A DNA stretch of 37,771 nucleotides from Lentisphaeria bacterium (GTDB lineage: Bacteria; Verrucomicrobiota; Lentisphaeria; Victivallales; UBA1829), in contig JAGCTY010000016.1 of assembly GCA_017963105.1 (NCBI GenBank), forward strand, positions 1 to 37,771, written 5' to 3'. How positions within the stretch are numbered: position 1 is the stretch's first letter; every line of letters begins with the position of its first letter. The notes under the pieces were generated by a model, which made no database searches, was not told the origin of the DNA, and saw only the letters and a program-made list of their open reading frames with translations. Position numbers and translations under genes: made by a program. This document shows, one piece after another, positions 12,122 through 21,897 of this stretch.

Positions 12122-12219
12122 GTGCTCAAGCGAAGCTGAGAGCACTACCGCAGTGGAGGCATCCGCCTCCGTGCTCAAACGAAGTTGAGAGCACTGCCGC
12201 CGTTGAGGCATCCGCCTCA
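12122..12219 (-). repeat. Tandem pair of 49-bp double-hairpin elements (copies A1, A2)
   Basis: Two adjacent 49-bp units, 12122-12170 and 12171-12219. Each has stem P1 (GTGCTC / GAGCAC) with an inner mini-stem: AGC-GAA-GCT in A1, AAC-GAA-GTT in A2. A linker resembling CCGCAGT leads to stem P2: GGAGGC / GCCTCC in A1, TGAGGC / GCCTCA in A2, loop ATCC. The TGA stop of the alpha-2-macroglobulin gene (complement of 12217-12219) lies in the P2 arm of A2. The same element family recurs at 20545-20593 and 22064-22160. Confidence 0.9.
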
Positions 12220-15200
12220 CTCGGCGATCACGAAGATGTGCTGCTCGGAGTTGCACTTGAGCTCGGGGGCGTACACGCCGCTGCCGCCGGCGGGGAGGGC
12301 GATGAAGCGTCCGGGGAGCTGCGCCCGCATCCGGTAGAACACGTTGGAATCGCCGCGCGCCATGTTGCGGAGGTAGAACTTGGCGCCGCGTTCGCGGTAT
12401 TCGCGGTAGATGGGGGCCTTGCCGGTCCAGTCGTAGCCGCTGACGGGCTTTTCGAACTCGAATCCGGCGGGCATGCTGTCGGCGAAGCAGACGTAGTCGT
12501 AATCGTTCTTCGCGGTGGAGATGAGCTCGACTTCAACGAGTTCGCCGGGGCGGATCACATCGCCGGACTTCAGCGGGACGCGTTTGTACTTGTCGCGCTT
12601 GACGGTCTGGACGGAACCCTGGAGCCCTGCCGCGACGGCTTCCTGCACTTCGGGAACGAGGCGGTAGTAGTTGCGCTTGATCTTCATCTCAAGTCCGGCG
12701 GGCTCGATCTCGTCCTCCAGCGTGAAATAGTTCAGCATGGAGTTCATGTAGAGGACGCCGGGGCCGTCGATGGAGATTTCGAGCTTGTGGTCGCCGGAGC
12801 CGAGGGCGTCGGGCTTGGCGAGCGCGACGAACGGGCTGTCCCACATGGAGGTCTTGTCGACGTGGAAGCTCTTGATCTCCTTGCCGTCGAGGCTGACCTT
12901 CACGTTCATGTCGGGCGCGTCTTCGCCTGCCGTCCTGATGTAGCGGGCGAGGGAGCGGACGACTGCGCCGAGTTCGCGGTTGCTGTTGCGCCACGGCGAA
13001 TTGCGGATGTTCGTGACGAGGTAGTTCGCGAGCTTGCGTGCGTTCGGGTCGGACGGATCGTTGTCGAGCAGGAGGTCGAGGTAGGCGGCGTTCGTTTCGT
13101 TTTCGCTGCCGTACCAGAAGAACCTGCACGGGGTCGGGATGTTCAGGTAGGAGGTCTGGTTTTCGTCGTCGACCATGCGGAACTGCGTGAGGTTGCGGAC
13201 GACCATGGCGCGTTCTTCGGACTTGGGCTCGAGCGCGAGGCCGAGCATGGAAAGCCCGTAGGGCGCGAGCTGGCTGCGGAGTTCATAGAGGAATCCGTTC
13301 AGCTCCTTGTTGGGCTTGCCTGCCTTGGCGAGGACGCGGGCGACAAGGGCGTCGGTGTTGGAGACGCCTTTGTGCTTGCGGATTTCGACGAGGCGTTCCT
13401 CGGCGTGGGCCTGGAGCCAGGCGACGCCGCGGTTCATGTGGCTGTCGACGGTCTTGTTGCCGTACGCGCTGACATCCAGCAGGGCGTCGACGACGTAGGC
13501 GGTCGTGTCCGGGAAGGAGTGTTCGCGGTAGCCGCCGAACCAGCCCCAGCCGCCGTCGGAGTTCACCATGGTGAGGATCATCTTCAGGTTCTCGTCCATC
13601 ACGCGGTTGAACGTCTTCGCGTCGAACGACGGATCGACCTTGCCGTCCTTCCAGCAGTACTTCTCCATATATTCGGTATAGAGCTTGTCGCGGGAGGTCT
13701 TTGCCGGGTGGACATCGTCGAAGCTGACGCCGAGCTTGGAGAGAGCGTTCTTCGCCGCCATGGACGGCACGAAGCGGTTCACGACGCCGAACACGGTGGC
13801 TTCGCCGTCGGCCGCGAGGTAGGGCAGGAGCTCGACCATCGCCATGGCCGCGCCGGGGGCGAGGTTCACGGTGAGGAAGGTCGTTTCGGGCTTGCGCTGT
13901 TCCGGGACTTTCAGCGTGACGGTCGCGGACTTGTTGTCCTTGTCGAGGTAGGCGAAGTTGTTCACCTGCTTGTCGATCCCCTTCACGAGGACGGGCAGGG
14001 CGAGCTGGAGCGCGTCGTCCTCTTCGCCGGCCTTCACTGAGAGCGTGATCTTGCTTTCACCGACCGCCTTGGCGTTCAGCGTGAACGGGCAGGCGGTGTG
14101 GCCGCCCGCCTTGACGGTGATGGTCGCGTTGTTCTTCAGGGTCATGGTGTTGACCGTGTCGCCGTCGACCGTGAGCGTAACGTTTGCCGTAACGTCCTTT
14201 TCCGTGTAGTTGTGGATGTTCGCAACGGCGTTGACGGTGTCGCCGTTCACCAGGAAGCGCGGGAGCTCCAGGCGGGCGATGAGGTCCTTGCTGACCACGA
14301 ATTCGGAATCGCCTTCGCCGACCGACGTGTCGGCCGTGAGGGACCACACGTGGACCTTCCACGTGGTGAGGTTGTCGGGAGCCGGGACGTCGATTGTGGT
14401 CTGGCCGTTTTCATCGAGCTTCACGAGCCCGGCGAAGTACGCGGCATCGAGGAAGTTGGAGCGGACGAAGGAACCGCCTTCGCCGCCGCCCATGCCGCCG
14501 CCCATTTCCATGTCGCCTTTCATCTCGACGGATTCTTCCGCCACCATCATGTCGGCGCTTGCGGCTTTCATCATCACGCGTCCGCCGCGGGCTGCCGCGG
14601 GAGCCGCCTCCATGACCATGTCGTCGTCCATGCTGTTCATGGCCGCGCCGAAGGACTGGACAGCGCCGCCGCCGAATCCGCCCATGCCGCCTCCGACGCC
14701 GCGTGCCATGGCGCCGTTCCTGCGGACCGCGCCGCCGTCCTTAAACATGACGCCGCCGTTGAAGTAGACGCTTTCACCCTGGCCGAGCGTGAACGGGAAG
14801 ATGTGTCCGGTCATGAAGAGGTTGTCGTTCATGAAGTGGATGCCGCGGGCGGGATTGTTGTGGAGGCTGGTCATGTTGTCGAGGTTCACGGTGTAGTCGG
14901 CGTAGTGCGAGCGCTTCCAGTTCCAGAAGAAGGAATTGATCGCCGGGATGCGGCTGGATGCGATGGCGTCGAGGGACTTGTCGTAGACCGTGAGCGTGAC
15001 CGCGCCGGAGACGGGCTTGCCGTTGCCGTCCTTGACGGTGATCGTCATCGGGACGTTCTGGCGCGGCTTGACGGGCTTCTTCGGGCCCGCGATGTCGACG
15101 TCGAGCATCTTGGAGATCGGCGGGACGGCGATCATCTTGGAGAGGCGCTGGACCTCGCCGTTGCCGACCGCGATCACGGAAACGTAGGTGTTCGGGCGGT

Positions 15201-18200
15201 CGCCGGGGAGGAAGTCCATCTTGAACTCATGCGAATATTCCTTTTCGCCGAGGCGGACGCACTCGTACTGCGTTTCGCGTTCCTGGCGCGTGAAGAAATA
15301 GAGCGTGGCGCCGGGTTTCTTCATGGAAACGAGGATGCTGGCGGATTCGCCGGGCATGTACTCGCTCTTGTCCGTGGTGATCTCAAGCGGGAGCTTGCTG
15401 AAGAGGTCGCCGGACTTGTCGAACCCGGCCACGAAGAGCGGATAGGAACCTTCGCAGGTCACGGGGTCCTTGCCGCCGTTCGCTTTCAGCGAGGCGTCGG
15501 ACGTGATGCTGGAGACGACTTCGTAGACGCCCTGGCGGTCGATCACGAAGCTCACGCCGTTCTCATCGCCCGCGGTCACATCCATGACCTTCACGGGCTG
15601 GCCGACGCGGTGCGGCACTCCGTTTGCATCGAGGTCGCGCAGGTAGATCGAGACCTTGCCCTTGCCCGCGACGGGCTTGCCGTCGGGCGTGGTGGCCTTC
15701 ACGACGAGCGTGACGGGCTTGCCGGTGCGAGCGAATCCGGTCTTGGCGGACGCGGAGACGTAGAACGGCTGGGCGGCGGTCACGACGGAGCCGGAGCCGT
15801 TGACCACGCGGTTGGACTCGTCGGAGACTTCGGCATCGATGATGTAGCGGAAATCGAGGTTGCCGAAGCGGCGGAGCGCGTCGCCCGTGTCGATGGGTAC
15901 GGTCAGGCAGCCGTCGTCGTCCGCGATGCCTTCGGCCTGCGTGATGAGGTCGCGGCCCCAGGTGACCTGGCGGATGCTCTCGTCACGGTAGGCGGTGGAG
16001 CAGATCCAGTAGCCTTCGCCGAAGAGCCAGTCGAAGCGGCCGCGGAACGGGAAGATGCGGCGCGCCTGTTCGCGGTGGACGGTGTATTTGATCTTCGCGC
16101 CGGACATGGGCGCGCCGAAGTAGTATTTCGCCTGGATCTTCGCCTCGAAGATGCCGCCGGTCTTCACCTGCGTTTCGGGCATTTCGACCTCAAGCAGGTA
16201 TTCCGGCTTCTTGTACTCCTCGACGGAGAACGAAACGCCGCCGTTGCCGGTGCTCAGGTTGAAGCTGCCGAGGGAGACGTCGTCCGGGAGCACGAACTCC
16301 TCGGTGGCGGCGGCCAGCATCGGGTCGCCGGAGATGTTCTGTTCGTACAGCTTCTTGCCGCGGGCGTCGGTGCCGGTGAGCTTCAGCTTGTATTCAGAGC
16401 GCTTCTGCGGTTCCTTCTCGTCGTAGGAGGCGCGGCGGGTGTAGACGGTGTACTTCACCGTGTCGCCGGGACGGTACACCGGGCGGTCGGTGATGATGTA
16501 GTCGCGGTCGCGTTCGTAGAAGCGGCCCGCGTTCATGGTGGAGTAGTAGGCGTTCGGGAGGAAGGTGAGGCCGTCCTCGGACTCGGAGAGGATGAGCGTG
16601 CGGTCGTTGAGCTTTTCGGGGAAGATGACCGCGCCGTCCTTGCCGGTCGTGACCTCGAACTCCTTCACGATGATGCGGTAGCGCCGTCCGCCGAACTCGT
16701 TCTGGTTGCGGTTGTTCGCGTATTCCGTCCGGTAGTTCATGATCTTGAGCTTGCGGTCGGCGAGCGGTTCGCCGGTCTTCGAGTCGTTGAGGGTGAGGAA
16801 ACGACCCTTCGTGACGGATTCCTTCGTGAGGATTTCCGGGGTGATCCAGACGAGGTTTTCGTACCAGGAATCCTTGGAGTAGGTGCCTTCCGTGCCCTCG
16901 GGCAGGGTGCGCACGATGTACGCGCCGGGCTCTGTGATGGGCAGCGTGACCTCGGTGTCGGTCTCCCAGTGGTGCGGCTTCGGCGTCACGTCGAACGTGA
17001 ACTCGGAGATCTTTTCCTTGATGGCGGGCGCCCACCCCTTGAATCCGGTGTTCATCTGATAGGCGTTGTCGGTCTGGTAGGACTGCTCGCCGCCCTCGCA
17101 GAGGCTTTTCAGCATGATGTCGACGGCGGTCTTCGCGTCAGCTTTGGTCACGACCGCACGGACCTTCGTGGCGTTGCGGCTGCGGTAGGAGAGGACAGGC
17201 TTCGTGCCGAACGGGACGACCTGGATGTTCTGCGTGGAGCCCCAGTTGCAGAGGATCTGCTGGACCATCTCGTTCTCATTTGCCTTCTTGAACCAGTCGG
17301 CGGCATTCTCGTACTGCATACGGGCGAGGTAGAGGTAGCCGAGCTGCTGGGCGGACTGCTGCTTGTAGAGTCCTGCCTTGTCTTCGTTCGCGAGTTCCTT
17401 GAAGATGCGGAAATAGCTGAACTCCTCGGGGAGGGCGATCTTGCGGACGCCGTCGGCGAGCTCGGCCACGGTCTCCGCGTCCTTCAGTTCATAAAGGTAG
17501 TCGCGGTATTTGTCGGAGGTCTGGTATTCGTTGCGGACGTTCCAGTCGATCTGGGAGAAATCGAACTCGTTGGCGAGGAAGGACGCCCAGTCGTATTTGC
17601 TCTGGTAGTCGCCCAGCGCGATGGCCTGTTCCAGCGCCCAGCGGAAGCGTTCGCCGTCGCACTTCGCGGACGCGAAATCCTTCGGGCAGGAGTAGAGGAC
17701 CGGGGAGCCGTCCTTGTTCACCGGCGGACGCGAGGAGCTGCCGAAATCGCCGTCGTCGTAGTCGGGCAGAACGGTCAGGTCGGTGAGCGCCTGGAGCTTG
17801 TAGGACTGGCTGCCGGACTGGTTGCGGCAGAGCAGTGAGGCGAGGGCGCGGTAGTATTTGATCTGGAGCGGCTTCGAGACGTTCTTCGCTTCTTCGGAGG
17901 CGGACGCCATGAACCGGAGATTCTGCACGCGGTCGCGCGCCGTGCTGTTCACGAGGCGTCCGGCGTTGCCGCGGTTGGCTCCGCGCGTGAAAGTATTATT
18001 GAAAAAGTAGCCGTAGCTGGTGACGTTGGCGTTCAGCTCGGCGGCGAGCGAGACGTTTTTCGGGAAACGCGAGGTCACGAACTCGTAGGCGTCGTCATAC
18101 TCCTTCACGCGGTTGTTGCTGAAGAGGCTCGCGCGGTACAGGTTCCACAGGGTGCCGACGGCTTCGCTCTGGGACTTCGCGGGGATGGCTTCCAGTGCGG

Positions 18201-18396
18201 CGCGCGCGGCATCGGCGGATTCCTTGAAATTGCCCTCTTCCATGAGTTTGCGGATCTTGGCGATCGTCTCTTTTTCGGCGGGCGTCTGCGCCGTTTCGGC
18301 CTGCGGTTTTTCGTCCTGAGCGGGCAGGGCCGGCGTAAGGAGGAACGCCGGGAGAATGGCCGCCGCGGCCAGGAGGAAGCGGATGTTTCGGTTCAT
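12217..18396 (-). CDS. Alpha-2-macroglobulin family protein lacking the thioester
   Basis: A 2059-residue secreted or periplasmic protein. I place the start at 18396 (AAAGGA 8 nt upstream), giving a signal peptide MNRNIRFLLAAAAILPAFLLTPALPAQ. An N-terminal helical/TPR-like region (about 30-400) precedes macroglobulin-type beta domains (RDYIITDRPVYRPGDTVKYT is the classic MG signature). At about 1216-1310, where the bait region lies, there is a Gly/Met/Ala-rich low-complexity segment. The A2M complement-like domain follows (FLDAAYFAGLVKLDENGQTT, DNLTTWKVHVWSLT). The alpha-helical thioester domain has DGGWGWFGG, but the expected C-x-E-Q is replaced around 1515-1525 by LPYLAADGEATVFG. Bacterial A2Ms trap foreign proteases; this one could not do so covalently. 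No pbpC neighbour is present. Confidence 0.88.
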   Translation of the reverse strand: MNRNIRFLLAAAAILPAFLLTPALPAQDEKPQAETAQTPAEKETIAKIRKLMEEGNFKESADAARAALEAIPAKSQSEAVGTLWNLYRASLFSNNRVKEYDDAYEFVTSRFPKNVSLAAELNANVTSYGYFFNNTFTRGANRGNAGRLVNSTARDRVQNLRFMASASEEAKNVSKPLQIKYYRALASLLCRNQSGSQSYKLQALTDLTVLPDYDDGDFGSSSRPPVNKDGSPVLYSCPKDFASAKCDGERFRWALEQAIALGDYQSKYDWASFLANEFDFSQIDWNVRNEYQTSDKYRDYLYELKDAETVAELADGVRKIALPEEFSYFRIFKELANEDKAGLYKQQSAQQLGYLYLARMQYENAADWFKKANENEMVQQILCNWGSTQNIQVVPFGTKPVLSYRSRNATKVRAVVTKADAKTAVDIMLKSLCEGGEQSYQTDNAYQMNTGFKGWAPAIKEKISEFTFDVTPKPHHWETDTEVTLPITEPGAYIVRTLPEGTEGTYSKDSWYENLVWITPEILTKESVTKGRFLTLNDSKTGEPLADRKLKIMNYRTEYANNRNQNEFGGRRYRIIVKEFEVTTGKDGAVIFPEKLNDRTLILSESEDGLTFLPNAYYSTMNAGRFYERDRDYIITDRPVYRPGDTVKYTVYTRRASYDEKEPQKRSEYKLKLTGTDARGKKLYEQNISGDPMLAAATEEFVLPDDVSLGSFNLSTGNGGVSFSVEEYKKPEYLLEVEMPETQVKTGGIFEAKIQAKYYFGAPMSGAKIKYTVHREQARRIFPFRGRFDWLFGEGYWICSTAYRDESIRQVTWGRDLITQAEGIADDDGCLTVPIDTGDALRRFGNLDFRYIIDAEVSDESNRVVNGSGSVVTAAQPFYVSASAKTGFARTGKPVTLVVKATTPDGKPVAGKGKVSIYLRDLDANGVPHRVGQPVKVMDVTAGDENGVSFVIDRQGVYEVVSSITSDASLKANGGKDPVTCEGSYPLFVAGFDKSGDLFSKLPLEITTDKSEYMPGESASILVSMKKPGATLYFFTRQERETQYECVRLGEKEYSHEFKMDFLPGDRPNTYVSVIAVGNGEVQRLSKMIAVPPISKMLDVDIAGPKKPVKPRQNVPMTITVKDGNGKPVSGAVTLTVYDKSLDAIASSRIPAINSFFWNWKRSHYADYTVNLDNMTSLHNNPARGIHFMNDNLFMTGHIFPFTLGQGESVYFNGGVMFKDGGAVRRNGAMARGVGGGMGGFGGGAVQSFGAAMNSMDDDMVMEAAPAAARGGRVMMKAASADMMVAEESVEMKGDMEMGGGMGGGEGGSFVRSNFLDAAYFAGLVKLDENGQTTIDVPAPDNLTTWKVHVWSLTADTSVGEGDSEFVVSKDLIARLELPRFLVNGDTVNAVANIHNYTEKDVTANVTLTVDGDTVNTMTLKNNATITVKAGGHTACPFTLNAKAVGESKITLSVKAGEEDDALQLALPVLVKGIDKQVNNFAYLDKDNKSATVTLKVPEQRKPETTFLTVNLAPGAAMAMVELLPYLAADGEATVFGVVNRFVPSMAAKNALSKLGVSFDDVHPAKTSRDKLYTEYMEKYCWKDGKVDPSFDAKTFNRVMDENLKMILTMVNSDGGWGWFGGYREHSFPDTTAYVVDALLDVSAYGNKTVDSHMNRGVAWLQAHAEERLVEIRKHKGVSNTDALVARVLAKAGKPNKELNGFLYELRSQLAPYGLSMLGLALEPKSEERAMVVRNLTQFRMVDDENQTSYLNIPTPCRFFWYGSENETNAAYLDLLLDNDPSDPNARKLANYLVTNIRNSPWRNSNRELGAVVRSLARYIRTAGEDAPDMNVKVSLDGKEIKSFHVDKTSMWDSPFVALAKPDALGSGDHKLEISIDGPGVLYMNSMLNYFTLEDEIEPAGLEMKIKRNYYRLVPEVQEAVAAGLQGSVQTVKRDKYKRVPLKSGDVIRPGELVEVELISTAKNDYDYVCFADSMPAGFEFEKPVSGYDWTGKAPIYREYRERGAKFYLRNMARGDSNVFYRMRAQLPGRFIALPAGGSGVYAPELKCNSEQHIFVIAE

Positions 18397-18579: not shown

Positions 18580-19434
18580 TTATTCTTCGATTTTTTCGGA
18601 GATTTCTTCCTTTTCGCCGTCGGAAGAGGCATCCGCGGCATCGTCTTCTTCATCGTCCGCGGCAGTGTCATCATCGTTGTCCGTGTCGTCGTCCCGGTCA
18701 TCATCATCCCGGTCTTCACCGTCCTCGTCATCCTCGTCATCCAATGCTTCGCGCGGATCCTGTCCGGCGGATTTCAGGATGCGGACGACGGTGTTCACGT
18801 CGCGCGGGTCGAACATCAGGACGAGCGTGTCATCCTCGCCGGGTTCGATAGATTTGAACGCCGAAAGCGTGGTGCGGATCTTTTCACGGCTCATGGCTTC
18901 CCGCTCCATCCGTCGCGCCAGCTTGTTCAAGGCGAATTGTGACATCGTGAGTTTGCCGATGGAGCCGGCCCCCGGTTCGATCGTGAGCTGGCCGTCGTCG
19001 ACGTAAGGCGTCAGTTCGATGAAGAGGTTGAGGGCTTTGCCGGAGAAGAGGGCGCTGCGCGACTTGATCGGAATGGAGAGGTGGGCTCGGATCCTGCCGT
19101 CTTCCCAGATCACGGCGTAGGGAACCACTTCCGGCGCGTCCTCACGGTCGTCGCGCATCAGGGCGTCCAGGAGCGTCTGGACTTCGTTCTGAGTGAGGTG
19201 AAGTTCTGCGACGTCGACCACGCGGCCTTCCTTGTCGACCAGCGAACGCGCCAGACGCGTGATGACGCTTGCCATCACGCCGGTGTCGCGTTTTTCGAAT
19301 TTGGGGGCGGGATAGGATACGGGCTTGCCGATCGCGAGGGCGACCAGGACGACCAGGAGAACGATCAGGACGACCAGGAGGACAAAGAAGAGTTTCAGAA
19401 GTCTGGAGAAACAGCTTTTTTTCTTCGCCGCCAT
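18580..19434 (-). CDS. Membrane-anchored protein with extreme acidic C-terminal tail
   Basis: A 284-residue protein of unrecognised family. I place the start at ATG 19434, with GGGGGA just upstream. The N-terminus MAAKKKSCFSRLLKLF is basic and is followed by a Leu/Val-rich transmembrane helix (about 13-36), so the protein is N-anchored with its body outside the cytoplasm. Residues 40-225 form a soluble domain. Its QNEVQTLLDALMRDD, IRAHLSIPI and LNLFIELTP pattern loosely recalls small anchored lipid- or wall-associated domains such as DUF2140, but I do not claim membership. The last 55 residues are almost entirely Asp/Glu. It starts 19 nt after the pseudopilin stop and is probably cotranscribed with it. 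Confidence 0.75.
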   Translation of the reverse strand: MAAKKKSCFSRLLKLFFVLLVVLIVLLVVLVALAIGKPVSYPAPKFEKRDTGVMASVITRLARSLVDKEGRVVDVAELHLTQNEVQTLLDALMRDDREDAPEVVPYAVIWEDGRIRAHLSIPIKSRSALFSGKALNLFIELTPYVDDGQLTIEPGAGSIGKLTMSQFALNKLARRMEREAMSREKIRTTLSAFKSIEPGEDDTLVLMFDPRDVNTVVRILKSAGQDPREALDDEDDEDGEDRDDDDRDDDTDNDDDTAADDEEDDAADASSDGEKEEISEKIEE

Positions 19435-19453
19435 GATGTCCCCCGTCAAACGA

Positions 19454-20341
19454 TCAGTTGTTGTCGTCGTCGAGGCGCATGGACCAGTAGTTGCCGGCAT
19501 TCCAGCGGCTGAGCGCCTGGTCCTTGCGGATGGTGTTGCGCGGATACATGAGCTTCACATGACCGTCGGCGAACGCGTAGTTCCACATCTTGCTGTGGAG
19601 CGTGGTGGTCGCGTCGAAGGAGGAGGAGCCGCTGGCGGATTCGTCGCCGCCCCATTGTTCGGACTGCTGCGCCGGGCAGGAGATGGAGGACCACCAGGCG
19701 GAGAAGAATCCGGTGCGGTTGGAACGGTCGTGGTTCGCGCTGGGGACGTACTCGACGAAATAGATCATGCGGGAAGGCATCGGGATCTTGGCATACTTGA
19801 GGCCGACCCAGAAGCCTCTTCCGTCGTTGCTGTCGTTGCAGATGGACTGGCCGCCGATCGTGTCGCCGACCTTCTCGTCATTGGTGGTGCTGCCGCCGGG
19901 GGAATGGTTCATGGCGTAGGTGCGGATCGGCATCCCGTTGGAGACGCTGGTGTTGCGCGGATACTTGTCGGCGGGACACTGGAAGAGTTTGATCGCCATG
20001 AAATCGGACTTCCCCTTGCAGTTCGGCACGCCCTTCGTCCCGACGTCCATGGTGCTCATCGGCGTGTATTTCAGGATCAGGCGTTCCCACAGGGAGTCGT
20101 TGTTGCCGCCGCCGGATTTCGCCGGGGTGACGAATTTCGTGTCGCCAACGTACTGGAGCGCACAGACCATCATCTGTTTCATGTTGCTGGCGCATCCGGC
20201 CACATAGGCGCTGCGCTTCGCGGACTGCAGCGCGGGCAGGAGCAGGGCGGCGAGAATCGCGATGATCGCAATGACGATCAGAAGTTCGATCAGGGTGAAG
20301 CCTCGGAACGTGGAACGGACAGGATTGCTTGTGCGTTTCAT
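19454..20341 (-). CDS. Type II/IV pseudopilin-like protein with H-X9-DG type C-terminus
   Basis: A 295-residue secreted fibre-type protein. The N-terminus has a short basic leader ending in RGFTLIELLIVIAIIAIL, the classic prepilin peptidase site (cleavage between G and F, with E at +5). LLPALQSAKRSAYVAGCASNMKQM follows, typical of the large pseudopilin families of Planctomycetes and Lentisphaerae. Near the C-terminus YAFADGHVKLMYPR matches the DGHV part of the H-X9-DG motif. It would be processed by a type IV prepilin peptidase and exposed at the surface. GAGGAG precedes the ATG at good spacing, and a promoter is visible upstream. Such proteins occur in many paralogues per genome; individual roles are unknown. 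Confidence 0.9.
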   Translation of the reverse strand: MKRTSNPVRSTFRGFTLIELLIVIAIIAILAALLLPALQSAKRSAYVAGCASNMKQMMVCALQYVGDTKFVTPAKSGGGNNDSLWERLILKYTPMSTMDVGTKGVPNCKGKSDFMAIKLFQCPADKYPRNTSVSNGMPIRTYAMNHSPGGSTTNDEKVGDTIGGQSICNDSNDGRGFWVGLKYAKIPMPSRMIYFVEYVPSANHDRSNRTGFFSAWWSSISCPAQQSEQWGGDESASGSSSFDATTTLHSKMWNYAFADGHVKLMYPRNTIRKDQALSRWNAGNYWSMRLDDDNN

Positions 20342-20596: not shown

Positions 20597-21823
20597 TTAG
20601 TAGCCCCAGTCCTTGAGCGTCTTCTTCGCCGGAGCATAACCCGCCCTTTCCGCGTCGCGGACCCAGCTGTAGGCGCGGAACGAGCTTTTCTCCACGCCGT
20701 AGCCGAAATGGTAGCACAAGCCGAGGTTGTACATGGCTTCGGGCAGCCTCTGTTCGGCGGCTTTGCGGAGCCATTCCGCGCCCTCTTCCTTGTCGACGGG
20801 ACCGCCCCGTCCGTCGAGGAGGTAATTGCCGAGATTGAGCTGGGCTTCCGCCAGTCCCTGTTCGGCGGCCTTGCGGAACCATTCGACCGCCTTCGCTCGG
20901 TCCGTTTCCACGCCCATGCCCAGGTCGCAGCAGATGCCCATGATGCACTGCGCCTGCGGCATGCCCTGTTCGGCGGCTTCCCGGAACCACCTGGCCGCCT
21001 CGGCGTCGTCCTTCTCCACGCCGTCGCCGGACATATATTTGCCGCCCAGACGGAACTGAGCCTCCGCCAGGCCGTTTTCGGCGGCTTTGCGCAGCCATTT
21101 CGCGGATTCCTCCTTGTCCTGTTCCACGCCCCAGCCCGTATCATAACAGCGGGCTATGTTGTATTGCGCTTCCATGTGCCCCTGTTCGGCGGCTTTCCGC
21201 CACCAGTTCGCTGCTTCGGCGTAATCCTGATCGACGGAGTTCCCTGTAGAGTACGCGCTTCCGAGGCCGAACTGGGCTTTCGCGTGCCCCTGTTCGGCGG
21301 CCTTGCGGAGCCACACGAGGCTTTCCCTCATCCGGCCTGAACTCGTGTATACCCCTTTCACGCCCCAGTCCGCGGCATAGCAGACTGCGAGGTTGTACTG
21401 CGCCTCCGCGAAATCCTGTTCCGCCGCCCTGCGGAACCATTCGACCGCCTCGCTCAGGTCCTGTTCCACACCGTCGCCGTTCAACAGGCAGATTCCGAGG
21501 TTGTTCTGCGCCTCCGGCAGGTCCCTGCCGTACATGGAGAAATGATCCGCGGCCATGCGATACCATTTGACTGCTTCGGCGTAGTCCCGCGGGACCCCGT
21601 CGCCGTTGTAATACCTGTTGCCGAGCTCGAACTGCGCGTTCGCATCGCCCTGTCCGGCGGAGGCTGCGAGCTCTTCCGCCGTTCGGCCGGCCATGGCGGG
21701 GTTCTCCGGCACATAAATGTCTTTCCGGATGTCGGTTTGTCCTCCGCATCCGGTGAATGCTGCGGTCAGGAGAACTGCGAGGAAACAAACGACTGCGGAA
21801 CGGATCGGGCTGAAGTCGAACAT
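20597..21823 (-). CDS. Sel1-repeat (SLR) lipoprotein
   Basis: A 408-residue lipoprotein. I place the start at ATG 21823, which gives a compact signal sequence ending AAFTGC with the lipid-carrying Cys at 26. Upstream Met codons lack a ribosome site and would spoil the signal. From about residue 45 to the end there are nine Sel1-like repeats of about 36 residues, each with the A-x-A-Q-x-x-L-G ... G-x-G-V-x-x-D ... A-x-x-W-x-R-x-A-A-E-Q-G pattern. Sel1 repeats fold as alpha-alpha hairpins and mediate protein-protein contacts, often in envelope assembly or host interaction. No catalytic domain is present. It has its own promoter and ends in the terminator formed by repeat copy B. Confidence 0.9.
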   Translation of the reverse strand: MFDFSPIRSAVVCFLAVLLTAAFTGCGGQTDIRKDIYVPENPAMAGRTAEELAASAGQGDANAQFELGNRYYNGDGVPRDYAEAVKWYRMAADHFSMYGRDLPEAQNNLGICLLNGDGVEQDLSEAVEWFRRAAEQDFAEAQYNLAVCYAADWGVKGVYTSSGRMRESLVWLRKAAEQGHAKAQFGLGSAYSTGNSVDQDYAEAANWWRKAAEQGHMEAQYNIARCYDTGWGVEQDKEESAKWLRKAAENGLAEAQFRLGGKYMSGDGVEKDDAEAARWFREAAEQGMPQAQCIMGICCDLGMGVETDRAKAVEWFRKAAEQGLAEAQLNLGNYLLDGRGGPVDKEEGAEWLRKAAEQRLPEAMYNLGLCYHFGYGVEKSSFRAYSWVRDAERAGYAPAKKTLKDWGY

Positions 21824-21897
21824 GGCGTGGTCTTTCTGTTGCATGTTTTTGATTTTTGATAATGGAAGAACCAATGATTCCCTGTCTATCCGAAACT

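Follow-up and report, generated by a model that had tools for sequence, protein, structure and literature searches.

We describe a bacterial alpha-2-macroglobulin (A2M) that lacks the thioester of most of its relatives, encoded in a stretch of 37,771 nucleotides from a Lentisphaeria bacterium (assembly GCA_017963105.1, contig JAGCTY010000016.1), hereafter the window. The gene occupies positions 12217..18396 on the minus strand, stop codon included, and its product, the query, has 2,059 residues; coordinates below are window positions, and residue numbers are those of the query. The thioester has been replaced in all 12 readable rows of the window's genus and in a wider group of Lentisphaeria, and residues predicted to shield it have gone with it in two domains. 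On balance, we favor the reading that this exported protein captures proteases without a covalent bond, by analogy with the thioester-less A2M MagD. The draft genome to which the window belongs (as contig C75) measures 3.0 Mb and is 87% complete. Near relatives of the query are mostly 87-97% identical to it, and some of them are labelled Sheep_Rumen or Goat_Rumen.

We confirmed the open reading frame, which starts with an ATG at 18396, and its product is a genuine member of the A2M superfamily. Five A2M-type Pfam domains exceed their cut-offs in A2M order (PF01835, PF17791, PF07703, PF00207 and PF17973). On the minus strand, these are the MG2 domain (residues 633-717, 16246..16500, E 1.2e-14), the MG3 domain (residues 727-775), the bait-region domain A2M_BRD (residues 1004-1142, 14971..15387, E 1.2e-12), the A2M domain (residues 1325-1408, 14173..14424, E 8.1e-18) and the C-terminal macroglobulin domain bMG10/CTMG (residues 1940-2045, 12262..12579, E 1.8e-20). 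A thioester-type helical domain (TED) without a thioester, helical in the AlphaFold2 model, spans about residues 1516-1855 (12832..13851, minus strand). The MG2 region profile-matches A2ML1, TEP1, CD109 and C5, and the best Foldseek matches for both halves of the model are the E. coli and Salmonella A2Ms, with E-values of 6e-44 and 6e-23 for ECAM. A second structure comparison (VIA-align) gave Z scores from 26.7 (TEP1) to 23.6 (SaA2M). Relatives match the query over nearly its full length and come from loci in Lentisphaerota, Planctomycetota and Verrucomicrobiota. An NCBIfam search of the query returned one chance match only.

We aligned the query with 87 relatives (88 rows), after removing 18 near-duplicates, and could read the thioester site in 87 of the 88 rows, the uncovered one being L101. 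An intact C-x-E-Q motif was looked for throughout the 2,059 residues of the query and none was found; the nearest approaches, CRNQ at 190 and CEGGEQ at 433-438, both lie in the N-terminal third, distant from the site. Since YPYGCTEQTLNRFLP matches the query ungapped at this site, the C-T-E-Q columns fall on T1534-V1535-F1536-G1537 (13786..13797, minus strand). An independent alignment that included the E. coli proteins YfhM (CLEQ) and YfaS (GVIN) and a paralogue encoded on contig C40 of the same genome (CLEQ) gave the same register, and the family profile aligns the query site with PYGCGEQ of human CD109. This bears out the claim of an earlier note on this DNA that the thioester is replaced by sequence containing ADGEATVFG. 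That stretch is present, but it lies at 1529-1537, about ten residues beyond the 1515-1525 given there, and the residues standing in the C-T-E-Q columns are TVFG rather than DGEA. Cys and Gln are both present in 64 of the 87 readable rows (62 CTEQ, one CVEQ and one CTDQ), and neither is present in the other 23.

These 23 thioester-less rows comprise 19 from one Lentisphaeria group and four others (L044, L059, L085 and L105). The group takes in all 12 rows of the window's genus, the query counted; a thirteenth genus genome, G009, gave an N-terminal match only. L025, assigned by code to the same family as the window, retains CTEQ. We built a quick tree of 86 rows from which the thioester-site columns were excluded, with L022 too short for inclusion and MagD and YfaS outside its scope; long branches are flagged where the thioester-less group joins the remainder. 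In this tree, a branch with SH-aLRT 100 separates 18 rows of the Lentisphaeria group from the others, L044 lying at its base on the far side, and the three planctomycete thioester-less rows (L059, L085 and L105) group together at 89. The starred branches of the tree require at least two state changes. The AU test mildly rejects a single origin shared by the 22 thioester-less rows of the tree (p-AU 0.035, for a group defined after the states were known). Because most relatives outside the group carry CTEQ, the Lentisphaeria group probably reached thioester loss by a separate route from MagD and YfaS. By family-profile score, the longest piece of YfaS reached 96.8 bits, compared with 70.8 bits for the partial C40 paralogue. 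The site letters of the separate losers are TTDT, TTDA and TTDS in the planctomycete rows L059, L085 and L105, respectively, and NTEA in L044, a Victivallaceae row.

We then considered the surroundings of the missing bond. In the Salmonella and E. coli A2Ms, the side chains that shield the thioester come from two domains: two tyrosines of the TED that shortly precede the Cys, and one Met and one Tyr in the C-terminal MG domain (PMC4498604). The common YxYGC and MY patterns place these residues at query positions 1530, 1532 and 2041-2042. Columns 1530 and 1532 hold an aromatic residue or His in every one of the 64 thioester-bearing rows, but in none of the 19 group rows. Likewise, column 2041 is Met in all 61 thioester-bearing rows with a letter there, as opposed to 0 of 18 group rows, the query having Val2041 (12274..12276, minus strand); Tyr2042 is kept by every row with a letter. 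As judged from the alignment, the shielding pocket (Y1530, Y1532 and M2041, from two domains) is lost together with the thioester in the Lentisphaeria group. A further change concerns column 1630, which is His in 61 of 64 thioester-bearing rows (Asp, Tyr and Phe in the other three) and Asp in all 18 group rows with a letter, including the query (Asp1630, 13507..13509, minus strand). L044 and L105 also have Asp here, and L059 and L085 retain His. This His may contribute to the chemistry of the thioester in these phyla. In the YfhM row, it aligns with Trp.

The separate losers supply contrary cases. L059, L085 and L105 retain Met at 2041, where L044 has Ile; Tyr remains at 1532 in three of the four, with His in the fourth; and L059 and L085 retain Tyr1530. 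Among tree rows, 20 of the 22 thioester-less ones differ at H1630 and 19 at M2041, versus 3 of 64 and 0 of 61 thioester-bearing ones, respectively. Two independent contrasts underlie these figures, so that no sign test can reach significance. The planctomycete losers keep M2041 in three of three cases and H1630 in two of three, which speaks against an obligatory link between thioester loss and change at these positions.

The other striking part of the protein is a segment rich in Gly, Met, Ala and Glu that occupies the bait position (residues 1217-1308, 14473..14748, minus strand); the 96 residues 1217-1312 are 25% Gly, 16% Met and 16% Ala. The counterpart of query residues 1206-1310 spans 33-105 residues across the 87 rows with a readable thioester site. 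In the query, its 105 residues include 8 Lys/Arg and plentiful Ala, Met, Val and Phe, with predicted protease sites. We computed Met shares without L018 and L030 (too short) and L101 (uncovered). Met takes a larger share of the bait than of the remaining protein in 59 of the 63 thioester-bearing rows and in 20 of the 22 thioester-less ones; its share is more than doubled in 50 of 63 and 18 of 22, respectively. Median bait Met is 7.4% in thioester-bearing and 11.7% in thioester-less rows, compared with about 2% elsewhere in the protein, and the most Met-rich 90-residue stretch is centred on the bait in 54 of the 67 rows of at least 1,800 residues. By contrast, the aligned stretches of E. coli YfhM, YfaS and the C40 paralogue have 33-35 residues and 0-3% Met, which indicates that a long Met/Ala/Gly bait marks the subfamily and not all A2Ms.

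The bait is also the least conserved region. Its mean identity is 0.20 in nine diverse group rows, versus 0.45-0.49 in BRD, A2M, TED and CTMG, and 0.19 in the first 40 of the 64 thioester-bearing rows; no bait column reaches 90%. In the AlphaFold2 model, residues 1174-1307 have pLDDT below 50, compared with mostly 79-96 per ten-residue block in the flanking domains. Judged by composition across the alignment, the Gly/Met/Ala segment is the standard bait of a planctomycete-verrucomicrobial-lentisphaeral subfamily. The earlier note was right that a low-complexity segment occupies the bait position, and the conservation of Met-rich composition that it proposed to check was borne out by the counts above. 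Its view that the protein offers no ordinary bait did not hold, homologues with or without a thioester sharing the segment. For the same reason, the possibility it raised of a local degeneration among normal homologue baits does not apply, the segment being the subfamily's normal bait. A link between this bait and thioester loss was rejected, as both kinds of row have the segment, and so was a DNA repeat artefact: Tandem Repeats Finder gives only short arrays of 2 to 2.5 copies (14482-14505 and 14584-14607).

How might such a protein work? For the E. coli A2M, bait cleavage has been proposed to release a disordered strand; this strand and the TED then compete for the C-terminal MG domain, which leads to closure, and in the Salmonella A2M chemical opening of the thioester gives no large change (PMC4498604). 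Activation by bait release, as in the E. coli proposal, requires no thioester for the trigger. The bait of the thioester-less MagD is cut by trypsin, chymotrypsin and papain, and MagD with an engineered TEV site holds TEV non-covalently (PMC5764988). By analogy, a protease would cleave the Met/Gly/Ala-rich bait of the query, the freed bait would displace the TED from the C-terminal MG domain, the molecule would close round the protease, and the latter would be retained by shape alone, like TEV in MagD. Before firing, the conserved hydrophobic V-F stretch that stands in for the thioester and its tyrosines might pack the TED against the C-terminal domain. Non-covalent trapping, which the earlier note had suggested, is the most plausible consequence of a real, group-wide thioester loss, with MagD as precedent.

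The same genome carries a second A2M on contig C40 (L032, reverse strand frame), with an intact YPYGCLEQ and a short bait, and each of the 12 other genus genomes has, in a different frame of 1,189-1,722 amino acids, a weaker second match to A2M. This makes a division of labour between two A2Ms plausible, in which the CLEQ protein could serve as the covalent trap. A more specific proposal, which we put forward tentatively and would not yet bet on, is that rumen and related Lentisphaeria made an independent second invention of a non-covalent bacterial macroglobulin. A conserved hydrophobic x-V-F-G plug, Asp1630 and Arg1803 would replace the bond and its pocket, and the contact between TED and C-terminal domain would act as a purely mechanical latch released by cutting of the Met-rich bait.

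Several points weigh against capture of proteases by the query. First, 68 columns of the TED show at least 95% constancy among thioester-bearing rows, and the query departs from 29 of them, so that its TED may have a different role. The thioester-bearing rows themselves show a median of 0 and at most 12 such changes, and the separate losers have 6 (L044), 7 (L059), 14 (L085) and 10 (L105). Second, a monomer that forms no covalent bond may be a poor trap in the absence of oligomerisation or partners, and MagD has operon partners, none of which was recognised beside the query gene. Third, the function of type II A2Ms, MagD among them, is described as unclear in a paper of 2025, which ties MagD to resistance against peptidoglycan-targeting type VI secretion system (T6SS) effectors (PMC12663445). 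Fourth, dN/dS in the bait is 0.26-0.62, giving no sign of positive selection by changing proteases, with the alignment unsure in this region. Finally, the structural comparisons have weaknesses: the AlphaFold2 models have a pTM of 0.67 and 0.60, whole-chain TM-scores for ECAM are low (0.31 and 0.22 by query length), and the rmsd in the second comparison is high (about 12-18 Å). Single domains match better than their arrangement.

The first and third of these points also feed the strongest alternative, namely that the protein is not a trap any more: its TED would bind another ligand, such as envelope or peptidoglycan in protection from lytic effectors, and the bait would be a flexible linker. 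The remodelling of the TED is specific to the group and leaves its core preserved (DGGWGWF, S1627, W1761 and R1807), and F1536, V1539, D1630, A1638 and R1803, along with L1523, are fixed in nine diverse group rows where letters exist. However, the bait retains the position, composition and cleavable residues of the subfamily and is disordered in the query model. Moreover, columns at least 90% constant in thioester-bearing rows keep the majority residue at 23 of 28 positions in the BRD and 49 of 68 in the C-terminal region. We regard a loss of the trapping function as unlikely, though worth keeping in mind.

We further asked whether the gene is simply degenerating, relaxed selection having removed the thioester from a disappearing protein. 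The thioester-less rows L044, L059, L085 and L105, with their 6-14 changed TED columns, might speak for this, as might the split frame of one genus row (L042 / L012), interrupted near residue 970 by a frameshift or an assembly error. Against it, the frame runs uninterrupted for 2,059-2,120 amino acids in 11 of the 12 genus rows, terminal branches of up to 1.27 changes per column mark the group as old, and new residues have become fixed in it. Compared with its genus relatives L002, L003, L006 and L009, the query has a dN/dS of 0.06-0.17 for the TED and of 0.02-0.08 for the C-terminal region; with L011, the values are about 0.23 and about 0.13, respectively, at a dS above 1. By these ratios, the TED is under purifying selection, and the thioester loss does not look like decay. 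Degeneration was rejected on these four grounds together and appears very improbable.

The abundance of Met raises another question, the earlier note having suggested an oxidant or metal sink. The Met-rich bait might be a redox or metal sensor or sink, the molecule being fired by oxidation or Cu(I) and not by proteolysis. Met is indeed the most enriched bait residue across the subfamily (4.1-fold, followed by Ala at 2.2, Gly at 1.95 and Ser at 1.5). Summed over 87 segments, there are 186 Met pairs within three residues versus 141 expected (standard deviation 11; none of 300 shuffles reaches the observed count), a sum in which related rows count repeatedly. In the query, however, Met does not cluster (5 close pairs versus 5.9 expected in shuffles), and its segment has neither Cys nor His, both of which are depleted in the subfamily. 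A rise in Ala, Gly and Ser with strong depletion of Trp, Tyr, Ile and also His is, for the first three depleted residues, what disordered segments generally have. Rumen bacteria of this kind are taken to be anaerobes, which counts against this reading as well. The suggestion is weak, with a signal over the pooled segments and none in the query, and we consider it very unlikely.

Capture of proteases without a covalent bond is best placed among the known bacterial A2Ms, which PMC5764988 already divides into type I and type II. The query resembles type II (MagD and YfaS) in being an A2M with a bait and without CXEQ, and in coexisting with a thioester A2M in one genome, as in E. coli (PMC5764988) and here with the C40 paralogue. 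It differs in its size of about 2,060 amino acids with a helical N-terminus, in the Met/Ala/Gly-rich bait of its subfamily (33-105 residues, compared with about 35 residues and 3% Met in YfaS), in its site letters (T-V-F-G versus G-V-I-N in YfaS), in the mostly CTEQ state of the nearest relatives outside its group, and in having no yfaPQTA or mag-type genes recognised beside it. From sequence alone, the query is type II-like in lacking the motif and is not so by operon.

Type I A2Ms (YfhM/ECAM and the Salmonella A2M) are the best Foldseek matches and share the order of bait-region, A2M, TED and C-terminal MG domains, but the query lacks the thioester, the pocket Tyr, Tyr and Met, and a lipobox, and it does not adjoin pbpC: no match to BiPBP_C was found in the 87%-complete genome. 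The thioester-bearing A2Ms of the subfamily are related over most of the length, mostly at about 30% identity, and have the same type of bait, but keep Cys and Gln (62 of 64 as CTEQ), His1630 (61 of 64) and Met2041 (61 of 61 with a letter). Complement C5, which is among the fold matches of the query model, is an animal member of the superfamily that keeps the fold without the thioester; it is a complement component and not a bait trap. Membership in the CAGE family, newly described hollow homotetramers of about 1 MDa common in Planctomycetota and Verrucomicrobiota (PMC12485934, a 2025 preprint), appears highly unlikely: by that description, the two share a similar length, a signal peptide, a helical N-terminus followed by beta-sandwich domains and the same phyla, and A2M is the top fold match of two CAGE domains, but CAGE1 is described as having no Pfam domain, the query has five A2M-type domains above cut-off, and no CAGE chain is among the PDB matches listed.

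The N-terminal part of the query precedes the MG2 domain. By eye, residues 1 to about 26 (18319..18396, minus strand) resemble a signal peptide without a lipobox; a crude lipobox pattern was met in 4 of 56 rows with a sufficient N-terminal match, the query not among them. Residues 39-382 (17251..18282, minus strand) form a region of mostly helices in the AlphaFold2 model, with block pLDDT of 81-97 except for two blocks at 74 and 68, and with weak profile similarity to TPR chains.

We then looked at the neighbouring genes. Upstream, on the same strand as the A2M, lie a 306-residue protein (18580-19500) without Pfam match that, by eye, has a membrane segment near its N-terminus and ends in a strongly acidic Asp/Glu tail, an N_methyl pilin-like protein, and a Sel1-repeat protein (20597-21874) with 8 matched stretches and, by eye, a lipoprotein-like start. 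Downstream, on the opposite strand, are AMP-ligase, hexapeptide-transferase and glycosyltransferase genes. We detected the 306-residue protein at five further loci; all belong to the genus, and two of them (L003 and L039) are copies of one genome. We surveyed neighbours in 78 sources (the window, L003 and L033-L108, leaving out L001, L002 and L004-L032), and apart from A2M, no gene family of the window turns up at two or more loci beyond the genus; where frames overlapped, the longest alone was considered, which means that small genes can be missed. The six-gene mag (yfa) operon was not found, with no mag-type gene recognised among the neighbours. DUF2135, the only mag family searched genome-wide, gave one match on another contig (G000:C127:3265-3402), inside a 1,239-residue frame. 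In E. coli, DUF2135 corresponds to YfaP, adjoining yfaS.

Non-covalent bacterial macroglobulins are already known, and the new part seems to be the Lentisphaeria group's own route of loss; among the open-licence papers listed, going by title and abstract, we found no description of this subfamily's bait or its thioester loss. The loss is more interesting than first stated, because the change spans two domains in a whole group, and the apparent oddity of the bait was a misreading, Met/Gly-rich baits being normal in the subfamily. The subfamily bears on how a macroglobulin holds a protease without a covalent bond, for which a mechanism distinct from earlier proposals has been suggested (PMC5764988). 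Altogether, the 64 thioester-bearing and 23 thioester-less rows form a natural before-and-after series within one subfamily, which points to residues that may accompany the bond and supplies proteins for a comparison of covalent and mechanical trapping.

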